Source: an uncultured Coriobacteriaceae bacterium (GTDB lineage Bacteria; Actinomycetota; Coriobacteriia; Coriobacteriales; Atopobiaceae). Taken from it: a DNA stretch of 33,898 bases. The position numbers were made by a program, and so were the translations under genes. The stretch spans positions 1 to 33,898 of the forward strand of contig CACXDP010000150.1 of the NCBI GenBank assembly GCA_902766445.1, given 5' to 3'. Shown piece by piece: positions 4,160 to 26,883 of the stretch (its first letter is position 1; every line of letters begins with the position of its first letter). Below the pieces are notes generated by a model. That model did no database searches. It was not told the origin of the DNA and worked only from the letters and a program-made list of their open reading frames with translations.

Positions 4160-5089
4160 ATGAGACTAGATGCTAGCGCCTACGAGAGATGCACGCTCTG
4201 CCCACGTCGTTGCGGAGCACGGCGGGCAGAAGGTCAGCGAGGCGTATGCGGCTGCACATCCGAGCTTCTGGTGGCTCGTGCCGCCCTGCATTTCTGGGAG
4301 GAACCTCCCATCTCGGGTGAGGCTGGATCAGGAGCGATATTTTTCTCCGGATGCCCGCTTCGCTGCGTCTTTTGCCAGAACGAGACGATCTCGCACGAGG
4401 GTTTCGGCATCGGAGTAAGCACGGCCCGCCTCACCGAGATGATGCTCGAGCTTCAGGACCAAGGTGCCCTCAATATCAACCTCGTGACACCGCTCCACTA
4501 CGCCCCGCACGTCGTCGTCGCCATCAAGCGCGCACGCGAGAACGGGCTTACGATTCCCATAGTGTGCAACACCTCGGGATACGAGCGGCCAGAGCTCATT
4601 CGCGAACTTGGCGACGTTATCGACATATGGCTGACCGACTTCAAATACGCCTCAAGCGACCTGGCACGACAACTCTCGGGAGCCGATGACTACCCGGCCA
4701 TCGCGACTGAGGCACTCGCGGAGATGCTGTCCCTGCTCAGGGCTCGCGGTGGCCGTCGCGTAACCGCTGACGGAACGATGCTTCAGGGCATCATCGTGCG
4801 CCACCTCGTCTTGCCTGGCCACGCCGATGACTCGTGCGCCGTCGTGAGCCGAGTATGGGAAATCGCGGGCAATGAGGTCGACCTTTCGATCATGAACCAA
4901 TACACGCCAAATGCCCGCTGCCGCACACGCAAAGACGGACTTCAGAATGCCGTGAGCGAGGAAGAATACGACCTCGTCGTGTGCCATGCTGACGAGGTCG
5001 GGTTCGAGAACATCTGGTGGCAGGAGGGTGGCACCGTTGGCGAGAGCTTTATCCCCGCCTTCGATGCCACCGGCGTAAGGAGAGACTAA
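4160..5089 (+). CDS. PflX-type radical SAM protein (PFL-activase homologue), 309 aa
   Basis: A radical SAM enzyme of the group related to pyruvate formate-lyase activating proteins. The N-terminus has a separate cysteine cluster typical of the PflX group (C11, C14, C18, C30, in CTLCPRRCGARR...GVCG). The catalytic CxxxCxxC is C65-P-L-R-C69-V-F-C72, which would bind the [4Fe-4S] cluster and SAM. The rest fits a partial TIM barrel, ending with SIMNQYTPNARC. No glycyl-radical enzyme lies next to it, so its substrate is unknown. The ATG at 4160 has a GAGGA box about 11 bases upstream. The gene starts after the tRNA-Ala terminator. Its stop codon overlaps the stop of the convergent acyltransferase gene (4 shared bases). 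Confidence 0.88.
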   Translation: MRLDASAYERCTLCPRRCGARRAEGQRGVCGCTSELLVARAALHFWEEPPISGEAGSGAIFFSGCPLRCVFCQNETISHEGFGIGVSTARLTEMMLELQDQGALNINLVTPLHYAPHVVVAIKRARENGLTIPIVCNTSGYERPELIRELGDVIDIWLTDFKYASSDLARQLSGADDYPAIATEALAEMLSLLRARGGRRVTADGTMLQGIIVRHLVLPGHADDSCAVVSRVWEIAGNEVDLSIMNQYTPNARCRTRKDGLQNAVSEEEYDLVVCHADEVGFENIWWQEGGTVGESFIPAFDATGVRRD

Positions 5090-7662
5090 TCCTTGCTTGT
5101 GCTGTCGGAATCGCTAGTGCTGGTATCAGACCCTGTACTCGAATCCGACTTCGCCGTACTCGAGCCGGACCCCGTCTCGGATGTGGACTCATCGCTGTCA
5201 GAGGTGCTTCCGCTACCACCGTCATCCTCGCTGTCACTTGAGCTGGACTCGCTCGTCCCAGACTCATCTGTGCTCTCGGTATCGCTTGAATCATCAGAGT
5301 CGCTGGTATAGCTGTAGACGTAGTCGTACGAGCCGTACATCTCCTCGATCTCCTCTTCATTCTCGGAGGGCTCTGCATCGGGATTGCGAACCTTGACCTT
5401 CTCCTTGACGAGACTCACGTAGGCGGCGATACCCTCCTCAGTCAGATGTACGCCATCGGCCTCAAACCAGTCGTCGTGATCCTTCGAGGCAGAGAACCAA
5501 TCAATGACTTGCACGTTCGGGGTGGTTGCCGCGTTGTCAATCATCTGGTTGTTCGGATCCTGCCAAGACCCTCCTCGCACGTTGACAATCCAAAGGTCCT
5601 TGTCTTTGCCGACGGCGTTCACGAAGTCGCTCACGTCGTTCGCCGAGAGCTGCCCCTCGTTGCCAATAGCCAAGACGACAGCAGTACCCACCACGTCCTG
5701 CTTCACATAGTTGAGGTAAGCCTTCGTGACGTCCTGGGGTTTGCGTCCGTCAGCCGTGTCGATGATACCCTTGGGGAAGGCCTTCGCCATGGCGTCAGCG
5801 GCACCAAGGCTCACGGTGTCACCCATAAAGGTAACGTCATAGACGGTATTCGTGTCGTCAGGAACCTCGTACTCCATGGTGTCCACCACGAGCTTAGCAA
5901 AGGCATCTCTTCCATCCCACGTGAGATGGATACCGTCCTCTATGAGCCAGTCCTCATGACCCTCTGTCGCGCCGTTCCAATCGATAAGATGCACGTTGTC
6001 ATAGTGCTCCACATACTCGTCAATGAGCGCGTTGTTGTCTATGTCCTTTGCGTTGGGACTGCGCAGGTTCACGAGCCACAGCTGGCGATCCTTGCCCACG
6101 AGCGCACGCAACTCATCCAAATCACTCTGGCTCAGGACTCCGTTAGTGCCAACGCTTATCACCACCTGGTCCCCCACGATGTTTGGTTCCTGGCTGAGAT
6201 AACCTCGCAACGCGGTGATGGCCTCACTTGCCTGACGCTCACCCATCGTGTCGATGAGTCCATGCGGGAAGGCTTCGTTGAGCTGTTCGTTCGCACCGAG
6301 CGACACCGAGTCGCCGATAAACACAACGTCGTAAACACCATCCTGCAAGGGCTTTTTCAGCGCGGTATGCATTACCTTGCGGTCCTCAGGTCTGTCACCC
6401 GCGATTGTCACTGGTTCCACCGTGATAAGTCCGTACACAGTGATGACGGTACCGATCAAGGTAAGCGCAAGAGCGGGAGCCATCACGCCGAGCTTCGCGC
6501 GAAGCGGTGACGCGCCGCGTGATTCATCCGCTTCTGCATCTTCGCGAGCGGGCCTGCCCAACTTACGCAAAGGCACCTCTACGAAACGGTACGACATCTC
6601 AGCCACCACGAAAATGATGACAAGCTCGAGCAGAAGATTCCACCATGGGATACCCGTCGTGTTGTTGAGCGGATTCATGAGCTCCAAAAGCGGGTAGTGC
6701 CACACATAGATGGCAAACGAGCGCGAGCCTATCCATGTGAGCGGCTTGAACGACATGACCTTGGCGAAATAGCTGCGATCGGGAACGAGTCCCGCAATCG
6801 CACCGATTGACAAGACCGAGCAGAGCAGAAAGCCCCCATAGTACGAGAAAGCCGTGTAACCCTCCGTGAAGAGCATCATGAGCACGATGCCGACAACGCA
6901 CAAAGGGCCGACGAGGATGGGTATGGTAGCAGCGAAGCCCTCGAGATGACGCGCCCTGCTCTTGCTCATGCGATCAAATGGCCAGACGATAGCCAACCAG
7001 CAACCCAGAAGAAGGCTCATCGCACGTGTGTCCGTGCCGTAGTACGGTCTCGACGGGTCAGCACCGGGAACATACAGCAACGCCATGAGCAGCGCGGAAA
7101 ATAGAGCCACCACAAGCGTTCCGACACTCACCATCCGTCTCGGGACCTTCTTGCGCATCAGCAGGTAAAAGATCGGCGGCCAGATGAGGTAGAACTGCGC
7201 CTCAATGGCAAGCGACCAGAAGTGCGTCAGCGGCGAAGGATTGCCCGCCGCGGCAAAGTACGACTCGTTGCTAAAAATCTTCGTCCAGTTAATCACCATG
7301 AGTAGGGCGGGAATGATGTCGGGGCGCATCTTTGTAAAGAGCGCCGCATCGGCGAATGCGCATACTGCCCCCGTCACCGCCACAAACACGAGGCAGGTCG
7401 GCATAAGCCGAGCAATACGGCGACGCCAAAACGAGCCGAGACTGATGGTACCCCGCGTCTTGCTGAACTCGCGCATGAGTCCCGCGGTCACCAAATAGCC
7501 CGAAAGCACAAAGAGAACCGTTACGCCTAGGAGTCCACCCCCACACCAGCTTAGTCGCATGTGATAAGCAATAACACCCAAGGCACAGAGCGCCCTCAGA
7601 CCATCGAGAGAGTCGACATAGCGCGACGTAGGCTTAGCCTGCGTTTGTCCCATCTGAGCCAT
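5086..7662 (-). CDS. Membrane O-acyltransferase (acyltransferase 3) with two SGNH domains and a Ser/Asp-rich tail, 858 aa
   Basis: An OatA-like envelope-modifying enzyme. Residues about 15-410 form an acyltransferase-3 domain with about ten membrane helices; DGLRALCALGVIAYH carries the conserved His34. After a further helix (about 390-415) come two extracytoplasmic SGNH domains. The first (about 440-600) has GDSVSLGA (Ser452), VGTNG (Asn507) and DGIHLT (Asp576, His579). The second (about 608-760) is a recent-looking copy with GDTVSLGA (Thr616 for Ser), IGNEG for VGTNG, and an intact DGVHLT. The last 80 or so residues are almost only Ser, Asp, Thr, Glu and Gly. The start at 7662 follows AAGGGGAG; the longer frame lacks family similarity. 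The substrate (peptidoglycan or a surface glycan) is not shown. It is divergent from a WecA/TagO gene, consistent with an envelope role. Confidence 0.9.
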   Translation of the reverse strand: MAQMGQTQAKPTSRYVDSLDGLRALCALGVIAYHMRLSWCGGGLLGVTVLFVLSGYLVTAGLMREFSKTRGTISLGSFWRRRIARLMPTCLVFVAVTGAVCAFADAALFTKMRPDIIPALLMVINWTKIFSNESYFAAAGNPSPLTHFWSLAIEAQFYLIWPPIFYLLMRKKVPRRMVSVGTLVVALFSALLMALLYVPGADPSRPYYGTDTRAMSLLLGCWLAIVWPFDRMSKSRARHLEGFAATIPILVGPLCVVGIVLMMLFTEGYTAFSYYGGFLLCSVLSIGAIAGLVPDRSYFAKVMSFKPLTWIGSRSFAIYVWHYPLLELMNPLNNTTGIPWWNLLLELVIIFVVAEMSYRFVEVPLRKLGRPAREDAEADESRGASPLRAKLGVMAPALALTLIGTVITVYGLITVEPVTIAGDRPEDRKVMHTALKKPLQDGVYDVVFIGDSVSLGANEQLNEAFPHGLIDTMGERQASEAITALRGYLSQEPNIVGDQVVISVGTNGVLSQSDLDELRALVGKDRQLWLVNLRSPNAKDIDNNALIDEYVEHYDNVHLIDWNGATEGHEDWLIEDGIHLTWDGRDAFAKLVVDTMEYEVPDDTNTVYDVTFMGDTVSLGAADAMAKAFPKGIIDTADGRKPQDVTKAYLNYVKQDVVGTAVVLAIGNEGQLSANDVSDFVNAVGKDKDLWIVNVRGGSWQDPNNQMIDNAATTPNVQVIDWFSASKDHDDWFEADGVHLTEEGIAAYVSLVKEKVKVRNPDAEPSENEEEIEEMYGSYDYVYSYTSDSDDSSDTESTDESGTSESSSSDSEDDGGSGSTSDSDESTSETGSGSSTAKSDSSTGSDTSTSDSDSTSKD

Positions 7663-8018
7663 GTAGACGCCACTCCCCTTCTTGCACCGTACACATATCA
7701 TCGTGTCAAAAGGATAGCGTACTGCTGTCCTTAAGCCAACACAAAAAGCGCCCCTGCGGTTGCTATTATGAACCCACCTCTCAAAGGTGGGTGTCCTCGT
7801 CGCCTGTTCCAGCTTCCCCAACAACGGAGGATCCCTGTACTGAGCACGAGATATGGACTCCCAAACAACACTTGTCGGTTCACCCAGTTTGCACCGCAGG
7901 AAACGCTACCTACATAGTAAGACTTTCGTTACATAAGAACAGTCTTGACATGTCGGCGATGTAAGAAAAAATAGAAAGATAGCAACGATTGACTGTCACG
8001 GAAGGAGGCGCATCGGCA
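7663..8018. other. Divergent intergenic region (356 bp) with hairpins, no gene recognised
   Basis: This lies between the acyltransferase (-) and WecA/TagO (+) starts. It holds an 8-bp perfect hairpin (ACCCACCT 7772-7779 / AGGTGGGT 7785-7792), a 7-bp hairpin (GGATAGC 7712-7718 / GCTGTCC 7724-7730, one G-U), an extended -10-like TGCTATTAT (7761-7769), and TTGACA at 7945-7950. No ORF here looks real. A small RNA (I considered 6S) is possible, but no closing stem could be found. Confidence 0.5.
7945..7974 (+). promoter_or_regulatory. Candidate promoter of the WecA/TagO gene
   Basis: A perfect -35 TTGACA (7945-7950) is followed after 17-18 bases by an A-rich AAAATA/AAATAG, a poor -10. It sits about 45 bases upstream of the start codon. 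Confidence 0.3.
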
Positions 8019-9218
8019 ATGGGATGGTGGGTACCGTTCGTAGTCCTCTTTTCCACGGCGCTCGTAATCGCGCTGCTCGTCACCCCGCTCGCCCGACGCC
8101 TTGCGTGGCGACTCGGGTCGGTGGACTATCCGGGTGGTCGTCGCATCAACTGCAAGCCGCTGCCCCGCATGGGCGGCATCGCCATCTTTTGCTCGCTTAT
8201 CGCAGGCACGTTCATGCAAACCCTAGGATTCAGGGTGTTTGGCTGGCCCTCCGTCGTCGTCGGGGGCATGCGTCCGCCCGGAAGCGTCAACTACCCGGCT
8301 CTCTTGTTGGGCTTCTGCATCGTCTTTCTCACCGGCCTCTTGGATGACTATCTAGAACTGAACCCCAAGCAGAAGCTTCTTGGTCAGAGCCTGGCAGCCG
8401 TCATCGCCGTGTCTGGAGGGCTCATGATCGACGTCGTCGTAAATCCCTTCACCAACGACGGCATCTATCTCGGCTGGGCCGCATGGCCTATCACGGTCTG
8501 CTATCTCGTGGCCTATGCAAACATCTTTAACCTCATCGATGGGATGGACGGCCTCTCCGCCGGTATCGCCTGCATCGCCAGCATCACGATGTGGGTTGTC
8601 TCGACCATGGCCGGACACCTTGATGCTGCAGCGCTCTCCATCGTGCTTGCAGGCGCGACGCTGGGGTTTCTCCGGTACAACTTCAACCCCGCTTCCATCA
8701 TCCTCGGTGACTCAGGCGCGCTGCTCATCGGTTTCGCGCTCGGCACGGTATCGCTCCTCTCGGTGCAACGCGTGGCCGGACTAACCTCCATCATCGTTCC
8801 GCTCGTGATATCAGGCATCCCTATCATCGACACGTTCTCAGCCATCGTACGTCGCGGAAGGGCCCACGTGAGCATCGGACAGGCCGACAAGGGACACATT
8901 CACCACAGACTCCTAGACGAGGGTTTCAACCAGCGTCAGACTGTGCTCTTCATCTATCTCTGGACAGGCCTTCTTAGCATTGGTTCCATTGTGATGACCC
9001 AAGTGGGCGTCGCTCCTCGCATCGCGATATTTTGCTTTCTCATCGTCGCGTCGGTACTCTTTGCAATGCGGCTGCATCTCTTTAGGCCTGTGCTCCTGCA
9101 CCATTACAACCCCGAGACGGGCCGTGACGAACTTGTGGGTCCCCAGGATGAGGCCTTCGAGGAGGAAGCCGAAAGGTTCGAAGAGGAGCATCCGATCTTT
9201 CCCCACGTCGGAGAGTAA
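8019..9218 (+). CDS. Undecaprenyl-phosphate GlcNAc-1-phosphate transferase family (WecA/TagO), 399 aa
   Basis: A polytopic membrane enzyme of the MraY/WecA/TagO superfamily that, by family, moves a sugar-1-phosphate (usually GlcNAc-1-P) from its UDP form to undecaprenyl phosphate. This starts assembly of wall teichoic acid-like or other surface glycans. Signatures seen are LLDDYLELNPKQKLLGQ (Asp pair), NIFNLIDGMDGLSAG, FNPASIILGDSGALLIGF and the cytoplasmic KGHIHHRL loop, with about ten or eleven hydrophobic segments. The C-terminal 45 residues are acidic and likely cytoplasmic. The start was set at the ATG at 8019, with a strong GGAAGGAGG 10 bases upstream; a TTG 30 bases earlier is inside that signal. 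MraY is less likely because of the overall WecA-like motifs. The exact glycan is unknown. Confidence 0.88.
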   Translation: MGWWVPFVVLFSTALVIALLVTPLARRLAWRLGSVDYPGGRRINCKPLPRMGGIAIFCSLIAGTFMQTLGFRVFGWPSVVVGGMRPPGSVNYPALLLGFCIVFLTGLLDDYLELNPKQKLLGQSLAAVIAVSGGLMIDVVVNPFTNDGIYLGWAAWPITVCYLVAYANIFNLIDGMDGLSAGIACIASITMWVVSTMAGHLDAAALSIVLAGATLGFLRYNFNPASIILGDSGALLIGFALGTVSLLSVQRVAGLTSIIVPLVISGIPIIDTFSAIVRRGRAHVSIGQADKGHIHHRLLDEGFNQRQTVLFIYLWTGLLSIGSIVMTQVGVAPRIAIFCFLIVASVLFAMRLHLFRPVLLHHYNPETGRDELVGPQDEAFEEEAERFEEEHPIFPHVGE

Positions 9219-9653: not shown

Positions 9654-9851
9654 CTAGTTCTTGCCCATCCTCTGGCTCACGACCTTGGCGTCACCCTTGG
9701 TGAGTTCGGTCTCCTGGCGGAAGCCGCGAATGCGCTTGGGCGACTTCTTGGTGAGAATGTGGCTCTTGAACGCCTTGGCACGCATAATCTTGCCGGTGCC
9801 AGTCCGACGGAAGCGCTTGGCCGACCCCTTGTGCGTCTTCATCTTAGGCAT
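9654..9851 (-). CDS. rpmI: 50S ribosomal protein L35 (bL35)
   Basis: A 65-residue basic protein with the family start [20 protein letters not shown], followed by [20 protein letters not shown] and ending in VSQRMGKN. It is a component of the large ribosomal subunit. It lies 3 bases after the infC stop and 20 bases before rplT, the standard order for this operon. An AAGGGAAG ribosome binding site overlaps the end of infC, which suggests translational coupling. Confidence 0.98.
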
Positions 9852-9854
9852 GAG

Positions 9855-10433
9855 TTATCTTCCCTTCTTCTGGTTGTTGCCTTCGCCCTCGTCCTGAGGC
9901 TCCTCCCTATCGAAGGCTCCACGTATGGGGGCGACGAGCATGTGCATGTTACGACCCTCCATCTTTGGCTGCTGCTCTACCGTGGCATACGGACGCAGGT
10001 CCTCTGCAAGGCGATCGAGCACATTCAGGCCCTGCTCCGGGTGAGCCATCTCGCGGCCACGGAACATGATGGTGATCTTTACGCGGGCACCCTTACGCAG
10101 GAAACGCATGACGTGGTTCTTTTTGGTCTCATAGTCGCCCACGTCAATCTTTGGACGGAACTTCATCTCCTTGACCTCGACCCGCACCTGCTTCTTGCGC
10201 GCGGCCTTGGCCTTGCGATCCTGCTCGTACTTATACTTGCTGTAGTCCATGACCTTGCACACGGGAGGCTCTGCGTTCGGAGCAATCTCCACAAGGTCCA
10301 TGTTTTGCTCGCGCGCGATGCGAAGCGCGTCACGCACGCCAAAGAGACCGAGCTGCGTACCATCGGCAGCTATGAGCCTGCACGTCCGCGATGTGATCTC
10401 TTCGTTGATGCGGGGACCCTCGTTCCTGGCTAT
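9855..10433 (-). CDS. infC: Translation initiation factor IF-3, starting at AUA
   Basis: IF-3 binds the 30S subunit, checks start-codon pairing and prevents early subunit joining. The usual ATG/GTG choice (a GTG at 10337) would cut off the first 32 residues of the N-domain. Reading upstream in frame gives ARNEGPRINEEITSRTCRLI...GVRDALRIA, the normal IF-3 N-terminus, reached from an ATA codon at 10433. That ATA has an AAAGGAAGG box 8 bases upstream, and an in-frame TAG lies two codons before it, so no earlier start is possible. Non-AUG starts on infC are known from other bacteria (AUU in E. coli) and allow IF-3 to repress its own synthesis. The result is 192 residues with an IF3-N domain (about 1-75), an IF3-C domain (80-170) and a short charged tail. 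Confidence 0.93.
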   Translation of the reverse strand: MARNEGPRINEEITSRTCRLIAADGTQLGLFGVRDALRIAREQNMDLVEIAPNAEPPVCKVMDYSKYKYEQDRKAKAARKKQVRVEVKEMKFRPKIDVGDYETKKNHVMRFLRKGARVKITIMFRGREMAHPEQGLNVLDRLAEDLRPYATVEQQPKMEGRNMHMLVAPIRGAFDREEPQDEGEGNNQKKGR

Positions 10434-10453
10434 CTTCTACACCTTCCTTTCAT

Positions 10454-10471
10454 TGCGATGCGCGCATCGCA
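10454..10471. repeat. 18-base perfect palindrome just upstream of the infC ribosome binding site
   Basis: TGCGATGCGCGCATCGCA is fully self-complementary and ends 5 bases from the AAAGGAAGG box of infC. In the leftward transcript it could form a hairpin next to the ribosome binding site. Confidence 0.7.
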
Positions 10472-10532
10472 CTCCTTGCGGCTCACGCCACAAAAAACTG
10501 CCTTCCCAGCCACGCACAGCCAAGGAGACAGC

Positions 10533-10560
10533 AAAACAAAACGTGGTAAAACCTACCACG
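10533..10560 (-). terminator. Attenuator-like hairpin in the infC leader
   Basis: On the minus strand CGTGGTA (10560-10554) pairs with TACCACG (10548-10542) across a 5-base loop and is followed by TTTTGTTTT. It lies about 100 bases upstream of the infC start, downstream of a plausible promoter. It could be a transcription attenuator, as known for L20-controlled infC operons in Firmicutes, or simply a terminator. Confidence 0.6.
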
Positions 10561-10643
10561 CACTTCGTTTCATGAAACCAGGCAGCTGCACACGGCACCG
10601 CGTAGGTGGGGACGGGACAAACCTATCCCACTTAGCAAACCGT

Positions 10644-10672
10644 ATGGTAGCGCTTCGCGAGCCATGACGCAA
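10644..10672 (-). promoter_or_regulatory. Candidate infC operon promoter
   Basis: On the minus strand TTGCGT (10672-10667), a 17-base spacer and TACCAT (10649-10644) give a reasonable sigma-70-like site. It would make a leader of about 200 bases that includes the attenuator-like hairpin. Confidence 0.35.
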
Positions 10673-11527: not shown

Positions 11528-12127
11528 ATGACGAAGGAAAGCACAAAACGCATGCTGTGGAGCAAGGTCATCTTGCTCGTGTTCGTCTACTCGCTAGTGA
11601 CCCTCGGGATGGCCGCCCTCAACCCCACACACACGACAACTGAACCCGACGTCAAGCCAACGGCGCACCTAAGCTTCAACGAGGAAATGGCCAGCGTCGT
11701 CAGCGAGGCGGAAGGGCAAATATACGACAACACCTTCTACGCTTGGTATGACGCCTACACACAATCTCGCATCGTGCCACTCATACTTAACGACCGCGAA
11801 TCCCTACGCTACGGTCCCTGGGAGGCACGTCCCGAGAAGGGCACAGTGGACGCCAGTTCCGATGGGGCTCTCACGGAATGGGCAACCAACTACTACATAG
11901 CTCACGACTGGTCAGATTACGGCCAAGAGATACTGACTATGCAACCAGGCGACGAAGCTGAGGTCAACGGTAAAACTTTCACCGTGGAAGGAATCTTCAA
12001 CTATCCCAAGGATAGCTTCTATGAGGAAATCATGCGCATTGTGGATAAAGATGCGACGGGCGTTACGGTAGTCTTTCAGACCTGTTATCCGGATTCCACA
12101 TTCAATCGCATTGTCTATGGCCGTTAG
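11528..12127 (+). CDS. Membrane-anchored sortase-like protein, 199 aa
   Basis: Residues 11-31 form an N-terminal membrane anchor or uncleaved signal (MLWSKVILLVFVYSLVTLGM), with the rest outside the cell. The C-terminal half looks like a sortase core: His126 in NYYIAHDWSD, then LTMQPGDEAEVNGKTFTVEGIF (like the LKVGDEI...Y.V strand pair), and finally VVFQTCYPDSTFNRIVYGR, matching the sortase TxxTC...R signature with Cys186 and Arg194. Sortases join LPXTG-type proteins to the wall or to pilins. No substrate protein or pilin gene is in the window. The gene has a clear GGGAGG box before the ATG and lies upstream of tRNA-Leu. The family call rests on three spaced residues and strand patterns, so it is likely but not certain. 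Confidence 0.65.
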   Translation: MTKESTKRMLWSKVILLVFVYSLVTLGMAALNPTHTTTEPDVKPTAHLSFNEEMASVVSEAEGQIYDNTFYAWYDAYTQSRIVPLILNDRESLRYGPWEARPEKGTVDASSDGALTEWATNYYIAHDWSDYGQEILTMQPGDEAEVNGKTFTVEGIFNYPKDSFYEEIMRIVDKDATGVTVVFQTCYPDSTFNRIVYGR

Positions 12128-25176: not shown

Positions 25177-26883
25177 TCACGCGCGGGGAATCTCGGTCCA
25201 GTCAGCACCGGGGTCGAAGCCTCCAGATCCACCGATCACGTCCCCGGCCTGATTCTCGTACGCACGGTCCGCCGACACGTCCAGCTCGACCTCGCGCCCG
25301 TCGGAGGTGACGAACGTGTTGACCCCACGTATGGCCTCCGACCAGTCGCCCACACCACCTCCGGTAGCGCTTCCCCTGAACTCCGCGTTTGTTCGCTCGC
25401 GGAACGCGGCGTGGTGCGCGTCGCTTTGGGCATGCCAAGAGGCGAGCTGCGCATCAAACGCGGCCTGGCGTTGTCGGTCAGCCGCGAGCGCCGCCTGCGT
25501 CTGCGCATTCATCATCGCAATCTGCTGGTTGGTGGCCTGCTGCATGGCTGCCGCTTCTTGGCGGGAGTCCGACTCGGCGAGCGCAATGAGCTCCTCATGC
25601 AGCGCATAGTCATTGACTAGCGGAACAAACGCCTGTTGATAGAGACGGTCAAACTTGCTTGCAGGTGCAAAGAGCACCGCAACACCCGCCACATCCCAGT
25701 AGATGCTACCCGTGTGGCGGTAGGGCTCGAACTCAGGCAGGCTCCAAGCGCCAGCAGCTCCCGAGCCGGCCGTGACGGATCCGCTTCGAACGTCCTGCGT
25801 CTCCCTGCGCTTTTTGCGCCTGCCAAAGAGCCCACCTACCGCAGCACCAAGACCCACAACCATACCAGCGGGATTCAACATATCGACGCCGGAGGCATCG
25901 CGAATGGCATACATGCGCACGTATGCTGCCAGTCGGTATGCGATGTCCTGGTAGACGAACTCGTAGATGCGCGTAAGCTCTGCTGCGAAGGGGTCTTTGA
26001 GCAGCGCCCCGCCAGAGGACTGTGCGGCACGCCGAAACTGCGCATGCCCCATCTCTTGGAGCTGGCCGAGGCGCGATGACCCCACCTCGCGCACGAGCCG
26101 CACGCCATGACCGGCGGCTTGACCCGTGACGCGGCGCATCGCAGCGTCGGCAAGCTCGCGTGGATCGGGCATATCGGCGTAGTTGGTACGGTCCACGCCC
26201 GCAAGCGCCCCGCCATACATGGCCATCGTGGCTCGCATGCTTTCGCTCATACGCATGCCCGCATCACCGAGCTCGAGGCTCATCTTGCCACTCGAGCCAT
26301 CGTCAAAGCTCGCTCGTGCCAGATACGGCCGCGAGCTGGAGCTACCACGCAGCAACCTCGCATCGCTGAGCTGCCAATTCGTGGGAAGCGTCAGCAAGAA
26401 CAACCCCCGGCCGCTCGACGCGTCACGCACGACGGCGCCATGGCGGTATTGTGGCTGTGCGGTCTCGCGGGCGGCGGCTTCGCGGGCGGCCTGCTCCCGC
26501 GCGGCGGCTTCGCGGGCGGCACGCTCTCGTTCCGCCCGCTCCCGCGCCGCCTGCCTCCGGGCCTCCTCAGCCTTCCTGGCCTCCTCTTGCTGCCGGAGCT
26601 CCTCTTGCTGTGCCTCGAAGGTGAGTCGTTGCTCTTCGGCCTTCCTCTTGGCCTCTTCGGCGTCGCGCTCAGCCTGTTTGCACGTCTCCTCAGCCTGCCG
26701 CGCCGCCTCCTGTGCCTCACGCATCGTCGCCCGAGCGGCTCGCAGCATCTCCTCAATCGCCCGAGCCTGCGCTATGTCAACCGGCTTCCCGCAATGCGGA
26801 CAGAAGCACCTCACGGCATCCGCACGCGGCACGAAGCTCTCGCCACACGCAGGGCACATCAGCGGCTTGTCGGACCCACTCAT
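25177..26883 (-). CDS. Zinc-ribbon, coiled-coil protein of unknown function, 568 aa
   Basis: Not recognised as a named family. The N-terminus has a zinc ribbon (Cys10-x2-Cys13 ... Cys28-x2-Cys31, in MCPACGESF...CFCPHCGKPV). Residues about 36-145 are a highly charged coiled coil ending in near-perfect AARE/AAREQ repeats. Then comes a globular part with a strand-rich region (FLLTLPTNWQLSDARLL), a Gly-rich hydrophobic stretch (GMVVGLGAAVGGLFG) followed by basic RRKKRR, and an Ala/Gln/His-rich C-terminal region. No signal peptide is seen. Its ATG overlaps the queH stop as ATGA, so it is translationally coupled to queH, and queA follows. Whether it takes part in queuosine biology or only shares the operon cannot be told. 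Confidence 0.78.
   Translation of the reverse strand: MSGSDKPLMCPACGESFVPRADAVRCFCPHCGKPVDIAQARAIEEMLRAARATMREAQEAARQAEETCKQAERDAEEAKRKAEEQRLTFEAQQEELRQQEEARKAEEARRQAARERAERERAAREAAAREQAAREAAARETAQPQYRHGAVVRDASSGRGLFLLTLPTNWQLSDARLLRGSSSSRPYLARASFDDGSSGKMSLELGDAGMRMSESMRATMAMYGGALAGVDRTNYADMPDPRELADAAMRRVTGQAAGHGVRLVREVGSSRLGQLQEMGHAQFRRAAQSSGGALLKDPFAAELTRIYEFVYQDIAYRLAAYVRMYAIRDASGVDMLNPAGMVVGLGAAVGGLFGRRKKRRETQDVRSGSVTAGSGAAGAWSLPEFEPYRHTGSIYWDVAGVAVLFAPASKFDRLYQQAFVPLVNDYALHEELIALAESDSRQEAAAMQQATNQQIAMMNAQTQAALAADRQRQAAFDAQLASWHAQSDAHHAAFRERTNAEFRGSATGGGVGDWSEAIRGVNTFVTSDGREVELDVSADRAYENQAGDVIGGSGGFDPGADWTEIPRA

Follow-up and report, generated by a model that had tools for sequence, protein, structure and literature searches.

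The DNA analysed here, referred to as the window, is a stretch of 33,898 nucleotides from an uncultured Coriobacteriaceae bacterium (contig CACXDP010000150.1, positions 1-33,898, assembly GCA_902766445.1). It carries a gene for a protein in which an acyltransferase-3 (AT3) membrane domain is followed by two SGNH domains, here called D1 and D2; D1 has an intact catalytic set and that of D2 is degenerate. An earlier note, made from the sequence without database searches, had delimited the open reading frame (ORF) exactly; the strand, which it left unstated, is minus. In Pfam, Acyl_transf_3 (PF01757) matched the protein with 98.6 bits against a cut-off of 31, and Lipase_GDSL_2 matched two stretches. 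Residue counts refer to all tandem loci in which both domains are readable, giving 41 proteins from 40 loci. The protein of genome G035 (another subfamily), loci L085 and L097 (frame-broken D2), and fragments were left out. Near-copies are among the 41 rows, so that the counts give numbers of sequences and do not reflect separate events. The gene and the parts of its product are as follows (aa, amino acids).

5086-7662, minus strand: gene for the AT3-SGNH-pseudoSGNH protein, 858 aa, running from the ATG at 7662 to a stop codon at 5086-5088; relatives match in length and domain order
6601-7614, minus strand: AT3 membrane domain, aa 17-354 (PF01757, 4.9e-28)
6343-6600, minus strand: linker with an extra predicted helix at aa 386-414, probably transmembrane helix 11 (TM11), from a weak full-length model
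5863-6342, minus strand: SGNH domain D1, aa 441-600, catalytic set intact (phmmer match to 6vjp; VIA match to Staphylococcus aureus OatA)
6307-6309, minus strand: D1 Ser452, nucleophile position (Ser in 41/41 D1 domains)
6142-6144, minus strand: D1 Asn507, oxyanion-hole position (Asn in 41/41)
5926-5937, minus strand: D1 Asp576 and His579 in DGIH (each in 41/41)
5377-5862, minus strand: SGNH domain D2, aa 601-762, catalytic set degenerate (phmmer match to 6wn9; identity to D1; VIA match to TesA)
5815-5817, minus strand: D2 Thr616 at the Ser position (D2 domains overall: Ser 5/41, Thr 11/41)
5656-5658, minus strand: D2 Glu669 at the Asn position (overall: Asn 1/41, Glu 20/41, Asp 10/41)
5446-5457, minus strand: D2 Asp736 and His739 in DGVH (overall: Asp 38/41, His 18/41)
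5089-5376, minus strand: acidic C-terminal tail rich in Ser, Asp and Thr, aa 763-858, poorly conserved between species

D1 and D2 are homologous. They are identical at 64 of 155 positions (41%), and the E value of 7e-40, obtained for that one comparison, puts the resemblance far beyond chance. The motif pairs singled out in the earlier note (GDSVSLGA/GDTVSLGA, DGIHLT/DGVHLT, and VGTNG/IGNEG) are present as described. The closest PDB sequence for both domains is S. aureus OatA (6vjp at 2.1e-20 for D1 and 6wn9 at 2.9e-15 for D2). An AlphaFold2 model of the D1-D2 segment, made with 13 aligned sequences, was confident (predicted local distance difference test, pLDDT, 89.0; predicted template modeling score, pTM, 0.85), and its top matches in Foldseek and VIA were likewise S. 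aureus OatA. The D1 model superimposed on this enzyme over 150 residues (VIA Z 22.6, root-mean-square deviation 1.6) at 34-35% identity; by sequence and by fold, 6vjp and 6wn9 ranked first and SpOatA next. D2 matched TesA (5tic_B) over 151 residues (model residues 178-329; VIA Z 15.3), and the sequence and fold matches together identify D2 as an SGNH fold. Foldseek rows of about 330 columns (EngA and others) were spurious, with deviations above 10. The full-length AlphaFold model was weak (pLDDT 68.8, pTM 0.49) and was not used for domain geometry.

In the AT3 domain, R23 and H34 are spaced like R14 and H25 in OafA and are invariant in 12 of 12 aligned rows. The OafA exchanges R14A and H25A are reported to abolish activity (PMC7448272). 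The AT3 domain is described as carrying the acyl group over the membrane, with the SGNH domain performing the final transfer (PMC7448272, PMC9558356). The window protein has the components of a fused AT3-SGNH acyltransferase: the Acyl_transf_3 match, the Arg and His of the first transmembrane helix (TMH1), and an SGNH domain with S452, N507, D576, and H579. Enzymes of this class have 11 transmembrane helices, which put the SGNH domain outside; for the window protein, the weak full-length model points to a probable TM11. Judging from these residues, D1 would be the catalytic domain, and the group that is moved is probably acetyl. One position of D1 departs from OatA. Gly474 in block II replaces a Val/Ile that is invariant in OatA (V460 in SpOatA; PMC5697884), and we therefore call the protein OatA-like rather than OatA; the 41 D1 domains have Gly in 22, Val in 13, and Ile in 6. 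In SpOatA, V460G is reported to leave 9.9% of transfer and 148% of hydrolysis, and the authors tie the residue to acceptor binding (PMC5697884). By analogy, the acceptor of D1 may well be something other than peptidoglycan.

The complete set of Ser, Asn, Asp, and His is found in all 41 D1 domains, whereas none of the 41 D2 domains has it; the loss of catalysis by D2 that the earlier note had suspected is thereby supported. In the window protein, the alignment pairs Ser452 with Thr616 and Asn507 with Glu669, again as the note had read them. Of the residues expected in an active SGNH hydrolase, this D2 lacks Ser and Asn and has the block V Asp and His. The two replacements are not fixed in relatives. 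Ten different residues occur at the Ser position (Ser or Thr in 16/41), and the Asn position, with Glu in 20, Asp in 10, and others in the rest, is acidic in 30/41, which rules out Thr and Glu as a fixed second chemistry. An intact second triad among relatives, which the earlier note had named as refuting evidence, is seen in part. The D2 domains from L074, L075, and L076, all from the genus of the window, do have Ser, Asp, and His; the Asn is absent in all three, replaced by Asp or Glu. In Parafannyhessea umbonata (L096/L018), both the Ser and the His positions are lost. The minimum number of changes on the D2 tree is 4 for Ser/non-Ser, 7 for His/non-His, and 18 for the residue at the Ser position.

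Published exchanges in SpOatA bear on these losses. S438A and H571A are reported to have no activity, and N491A to have no transfer and 41.8% of hydrolysis (PMC5697884). Since N491A does not transfer, a D2 without the Asn should not be a transferase; because it still hydrolyses, a weak esterase in the D2 of L074, L075, and L076 is conceivable. That D2 is a pseudoenzyme is well supported.

Other features of D2 are strongly retained: the block I Asp (40/41), the block II Asp and Arg (41/41 each), an Asp-Trp pair (41/41), and the Leu after DGxH (41/41). Fourteen of the 29 positions conserved at 95% or more in D1 are retained in 37 or more of the 41 D2 domains, and D2 has a consensus of its own, for example (I/V)D(T/C)A.GR. 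Some positions conserved in D1 that are not catalytic (Gly442, Gln477, Tyr598, and Asp445) are also altered in D2; the loss is therefore not confined to catalysis.

All 41 D2 domains form one clade (Shimodaira-Hasegawa-like approximate likelihood ratio test 100; 100/100 in a careful tree of 99 rows), and in the careful tree D1 and D2 jointly form a clade at 90/92. The monophyly of the D2 domains points to a single duplication followed by joint inheritance with D1, and rules out independent recent duplications in each species. The distance matrices of D1 and D2 across the 41 proteins correlate with r 0.67, where 999 shuffles reached no more than 0.17, as expected if both domains were inherited as a unit. 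As read from the sequences, one old internal duplication in Coriobacteriales gave rise to a putatively catalytic D1 and a pseudo-SGNH D2. Either the sampled families diverged after this duplication, or the gene spread among them.

The ratio of nonsynonymous to synonymous substitution (dN/dS) was 0.07-0.40 for D2 in 10 pairs and 0-0.25 for D1 in the nine pairs for which it was computable. D2 had the higher value in eight of nine comparable pairs. D2 is under purifying selection, and the constraint is weaker than that on D1.

The counts of genomes come from a reading of match lists. Among records that bear a name, the nearest come from metagenome-assembled genomes (MAGs) assigned to uncultured Coriobacteriaceae, Atopobiaceae, and Olsenella, and from the isolate Parafannyhessea umbonata (L018). 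AT3-SGNH-SGNH proteins of the tandem family were found in 12 of 16 genomes of the genus of the window. In its taxonomic family, 32 of 140 genomes have them, a count that takes in the two with a broken D2 frame and omits G035. In a class sample of 396 genomes, the tandem family was present in eight genomes from two other families of the order; the 41 readable copies span three families of Coriobacteriales. In a phylum sample of 396 genomes, a single match spanning both domains was found in the window's own genome only; this search covered the one phylum. Genomes G068, G021, and G050 have two tandem AT3-SGNH-SGNH genes each, and in G068 (L079) the frames are about 0.6 kb apart. In Coriobacteriales, AT3 proteins with one SGNH domain are frequent, and additional relatives of this kind occur in the genome from which the window comes (L002, L003, and the cut-off L006).

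Several related proteins lie outside the D2 family. L002, L003, L006, L102-L104, and L106 belong to a paralogous AT3-SGNH subfamily in which FSN replaces GTN in block III and block I is mostly DSVPGD or DSVAGD. The G035 protein (L099, 3558-6446; also L125) is an AT3-SGNH-SGNH protein of the GDSVPGD/FSN subfamily, with Ser kept in both SGNH copies; it is an independent tandem of another subfamily and thus an exception to the single origin. Neighbouring matches in G509 and G597, from another family of the phylum, were considered as a tandem outside Coriobacteriales and proved to be separate ORFs. There (L127, L128, and L129), an AT3-SGNH gene is directly followed by a separate SGNH ORF; Ser, GTN, and DG.H are intact in both, a two-gene counterpart of the tandem. 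In G088 (L101, 4194-6116), an AT3 protein with one SGNH domain has an intact set; this domain is 42.8% identical to the D2 of the window and 35.8% to its D1, and despite the higher identity to D2 it falls outside the D2 clade.

The analysis having established the architecture, the homology of the two domains, the absence of the full catalytic set from all D2 domains, the single origin, and purifying selection, we read the window protein as an AT3-SGNH O-acyltransferase of the OatA/OafA kind, whose D2 is a pseudoenzyme copy most likely aiding acceptor positioning or selection. We give this reading a probability of roughly 0.55. In the gut and rumen bacteria that have it, this membrane protein probably acetylates sugars at the cell surface. 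The AT3 domain would pass the acyl group (probably acetyl) outwards; D1 would take it over on Ser452 and hand it to a hydroxyl group on a glycan outside the cytoplasm. D2, duplicated from D1, would have lost the chemistry, kept the fold, and been retained because it helps D1 to place or choose its acceptor polymer, in the way that acceptor choice is narrowed by the SGNH extension of OafB. Partial removal of that extension is reported to widen acceptor use (PMC7448272), and by this analogy acceptor recognition is the most likely role of D2. The suggestion in the earlier note of a glycan-binding or regulatory module is plausible.

Some points weigh against this reading. Its glycan-binding step rests on analogy, and the conserved residues of D2 may merely maintain the fold. 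The faster evolution of D2 than D1 in eight of nine pairs also fits weak constraint. Gly474 matches the V460G exchange, in which transfer falls to 9.9% and hydrolysis rises, and efficient transfer even by D1 cannot be taken for granted. The Asp-His pair is whole in the D2 of the window, as is the Ser-Asp-His triad in that of L074, L075, and L076.

Acceptor recognition could take the form of a lectin-like D2, whose old cleft would bind a cell-surface polymer and present it to D1. The features behind this tentative proposal are the acid at the oxyanion-hole position (30/41) together with the invariant block II Arg.

The main rival to acceptor recognition is a purely structural or regulatory D2, a non-catalytic partner that would form an internal pseudo-dimer and stabilise, space, or gate D1 without binding glycan. 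We regard it as possible, if doubtful. The pTM of 0.85 for the tandem model suggests a defined arrangement of D1 and D2, and some residues conserved specifically in D2 lie in the helix after block I (the equivalents of Ala457, Asp459, and Leu461), a possible interface. A few VIA rows, in which one SGNH chain extends over model residues 1 to about 330, hint that a strand preceding D1 lies near D2. The full-length model, however, is weak (pTM 0.49).

A further rival, which appears unlikely, makes D2 a weak or altered catalytic site in its own right, with a Thr or Ser nucleophile; it would work with D1 as an acyl relay or esterase, in the way that AlgJ and AlgX follow one another. The window protein has Thr616, Asp736, and His739 in place, the three relatives named above have Ser, Asp, and His, and hydrolysis persists in N491A. 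Moreover, the block III Asn is described as absent from AlgX-like enzymes (PMC5697884), and AlgJ has been proposed as an intermediary ahead of AlgX (PMC10302187). Across the family, however, Ser or Thr is found in only 16, His in 18, and Asn in one of the 41 D2 domains, the Ser position has undergone at least 18 changes, and the Asn has become an acid in 30; a second site is therefore conceivable for no more than part of the family, for instance the genus of the window. That D2 is a functionless relic being lost fits worst and is very improbable: the frame is broken at L085 and L097 and D2 evolves faster than D1, but these breaks may be MAG assembly errors, and there are 41 readable copies in three families, with dN/dS well below 1 and a D2-specific consensus.

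One neighbouring gene may bear on the acceptor.

7989-9218, plus strand: WecA/TagO/MraY-type glycosyl-1-phosphate transferase (Glycos_transf_4, Pfam 7e-38), divergent neighbour of the tandem gene

In 14 of 40 loci a WecA-type gene lies close to the tandem gene, several loci being too short to tell. This neighbour weakly suggests a wall polymer as the acceptor. No gene was linked to the tandem gene in all 40 loci, and thus no conserved operon was found.

Three further ORFs of the window had no significant Pfam match. The ORF at 9759-10667 is conserved; the ten loci that have it also share a further ORF cluster, so that 9759-10667 may be a shadow ORF. The 199-aa protein encoded at 11528-12127 (plus strand) has an N-terminal hydrophobic segment and a relative in eight of 40 tandem loci. 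Near its end a Cys is followed by an Arg, and together with a His upstream these may form a sortase-like motif. Between queA and queH lies a 568-aa ORF (25177-26883, minus strand) with a weakly zinc-ribbon-like N-terminus and a long stretch rich in Ala and Glu.

A degenerate twin retained beside an invariant, active-looking D1 may bear on how AT3-SGNH enzymes pick their acceptor. The tandem family, which is spread over many species and has at least one named isolate among its carriers (Parafannyhessea umbonata, L018), offers a natural deletion experiment, the removal of D2. If D2 is lectin-like, an order of gut Actinomycetota would set the acceptor specificity of an AT3-SGNH enzyme through an inactive duplicate of the enzyme's catalytic domain; the polymer would possibly be one begun by the linked WecA/TagO-type enzyme rather than peptidoglycan. 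O-acetylation of wall polymers is reported to be able to affect lysozyme resistance, and may thereby influence how gut bacteria live within the host.

The known AT3 architectures are given as AT3-only, AT3-SGNH, and AT3-racemase (PMC7448272, PMC9558356, PMC9833829, PMC9487903), and a single SGNH domain, as the earlier note had assumed, is normal for OatA-type enzymes (PMC7448272, PMC9558356). No bacterial acyltransferase with an AT3-SGNH-SGNH build was found in the accessible parts of the open-licence literature on tandem, second, duplicated, or inactive SGNH domains. AT3-SGNH enzymes themselves are already known; the tandem is apparently new, although a negative search of this scope is not proof.

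The peptidoglycan O-acetyltransferase OatA (SaOatA, 6vjp/6wn9; SpOatA, 5ufy), which acetylates C6 of MurNAc, likewise combines AT3 with an SGNH domain, extracytoplasmic in OatA and putatively so in the window protein, and its Ser, Asn, Asp, and His are kept in D1; unlike OatA, the window protein has a second SGNH domain, an acidic tail, and the block II Gly. The G035 tandem (L099) and the paired ORFs of G509 and G597 (L127-L129) also have two SGNH units for each AT3 unit. The former is an independent duplication and the latter are two genes, and in contrast to the window protein Ser is kept in both units. AlgJ/AlgX and WssI/WssF are similar in having two SGNH-type proteins in each acylation pathway, but as separate proteins (PMC10302187); AlgJ and AlgX are both reported to have esterase activity (PMC9487903), whereas D2 is degenerate and fused. 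The OSK domain of Oskar is likewise an SGNH fold, reported to be without catalytic activity and put to use in binding (PMC12247748), though it is eukaryotic, binds RNA, and stands in an unrelated context. OafA and OafB, O-antigen acetyltransferases of Gram-negative bacteria, share the AT3-SGNH fusion and the spacing of the TMH1 Arg and His (PMC7448272). The extension of OafB (SGNHext) is, like D2, an accessory region, and it controls acceptor choice; it is described as a structured linker, whereas D2 is a whole SGNH domain (PMC7448272).

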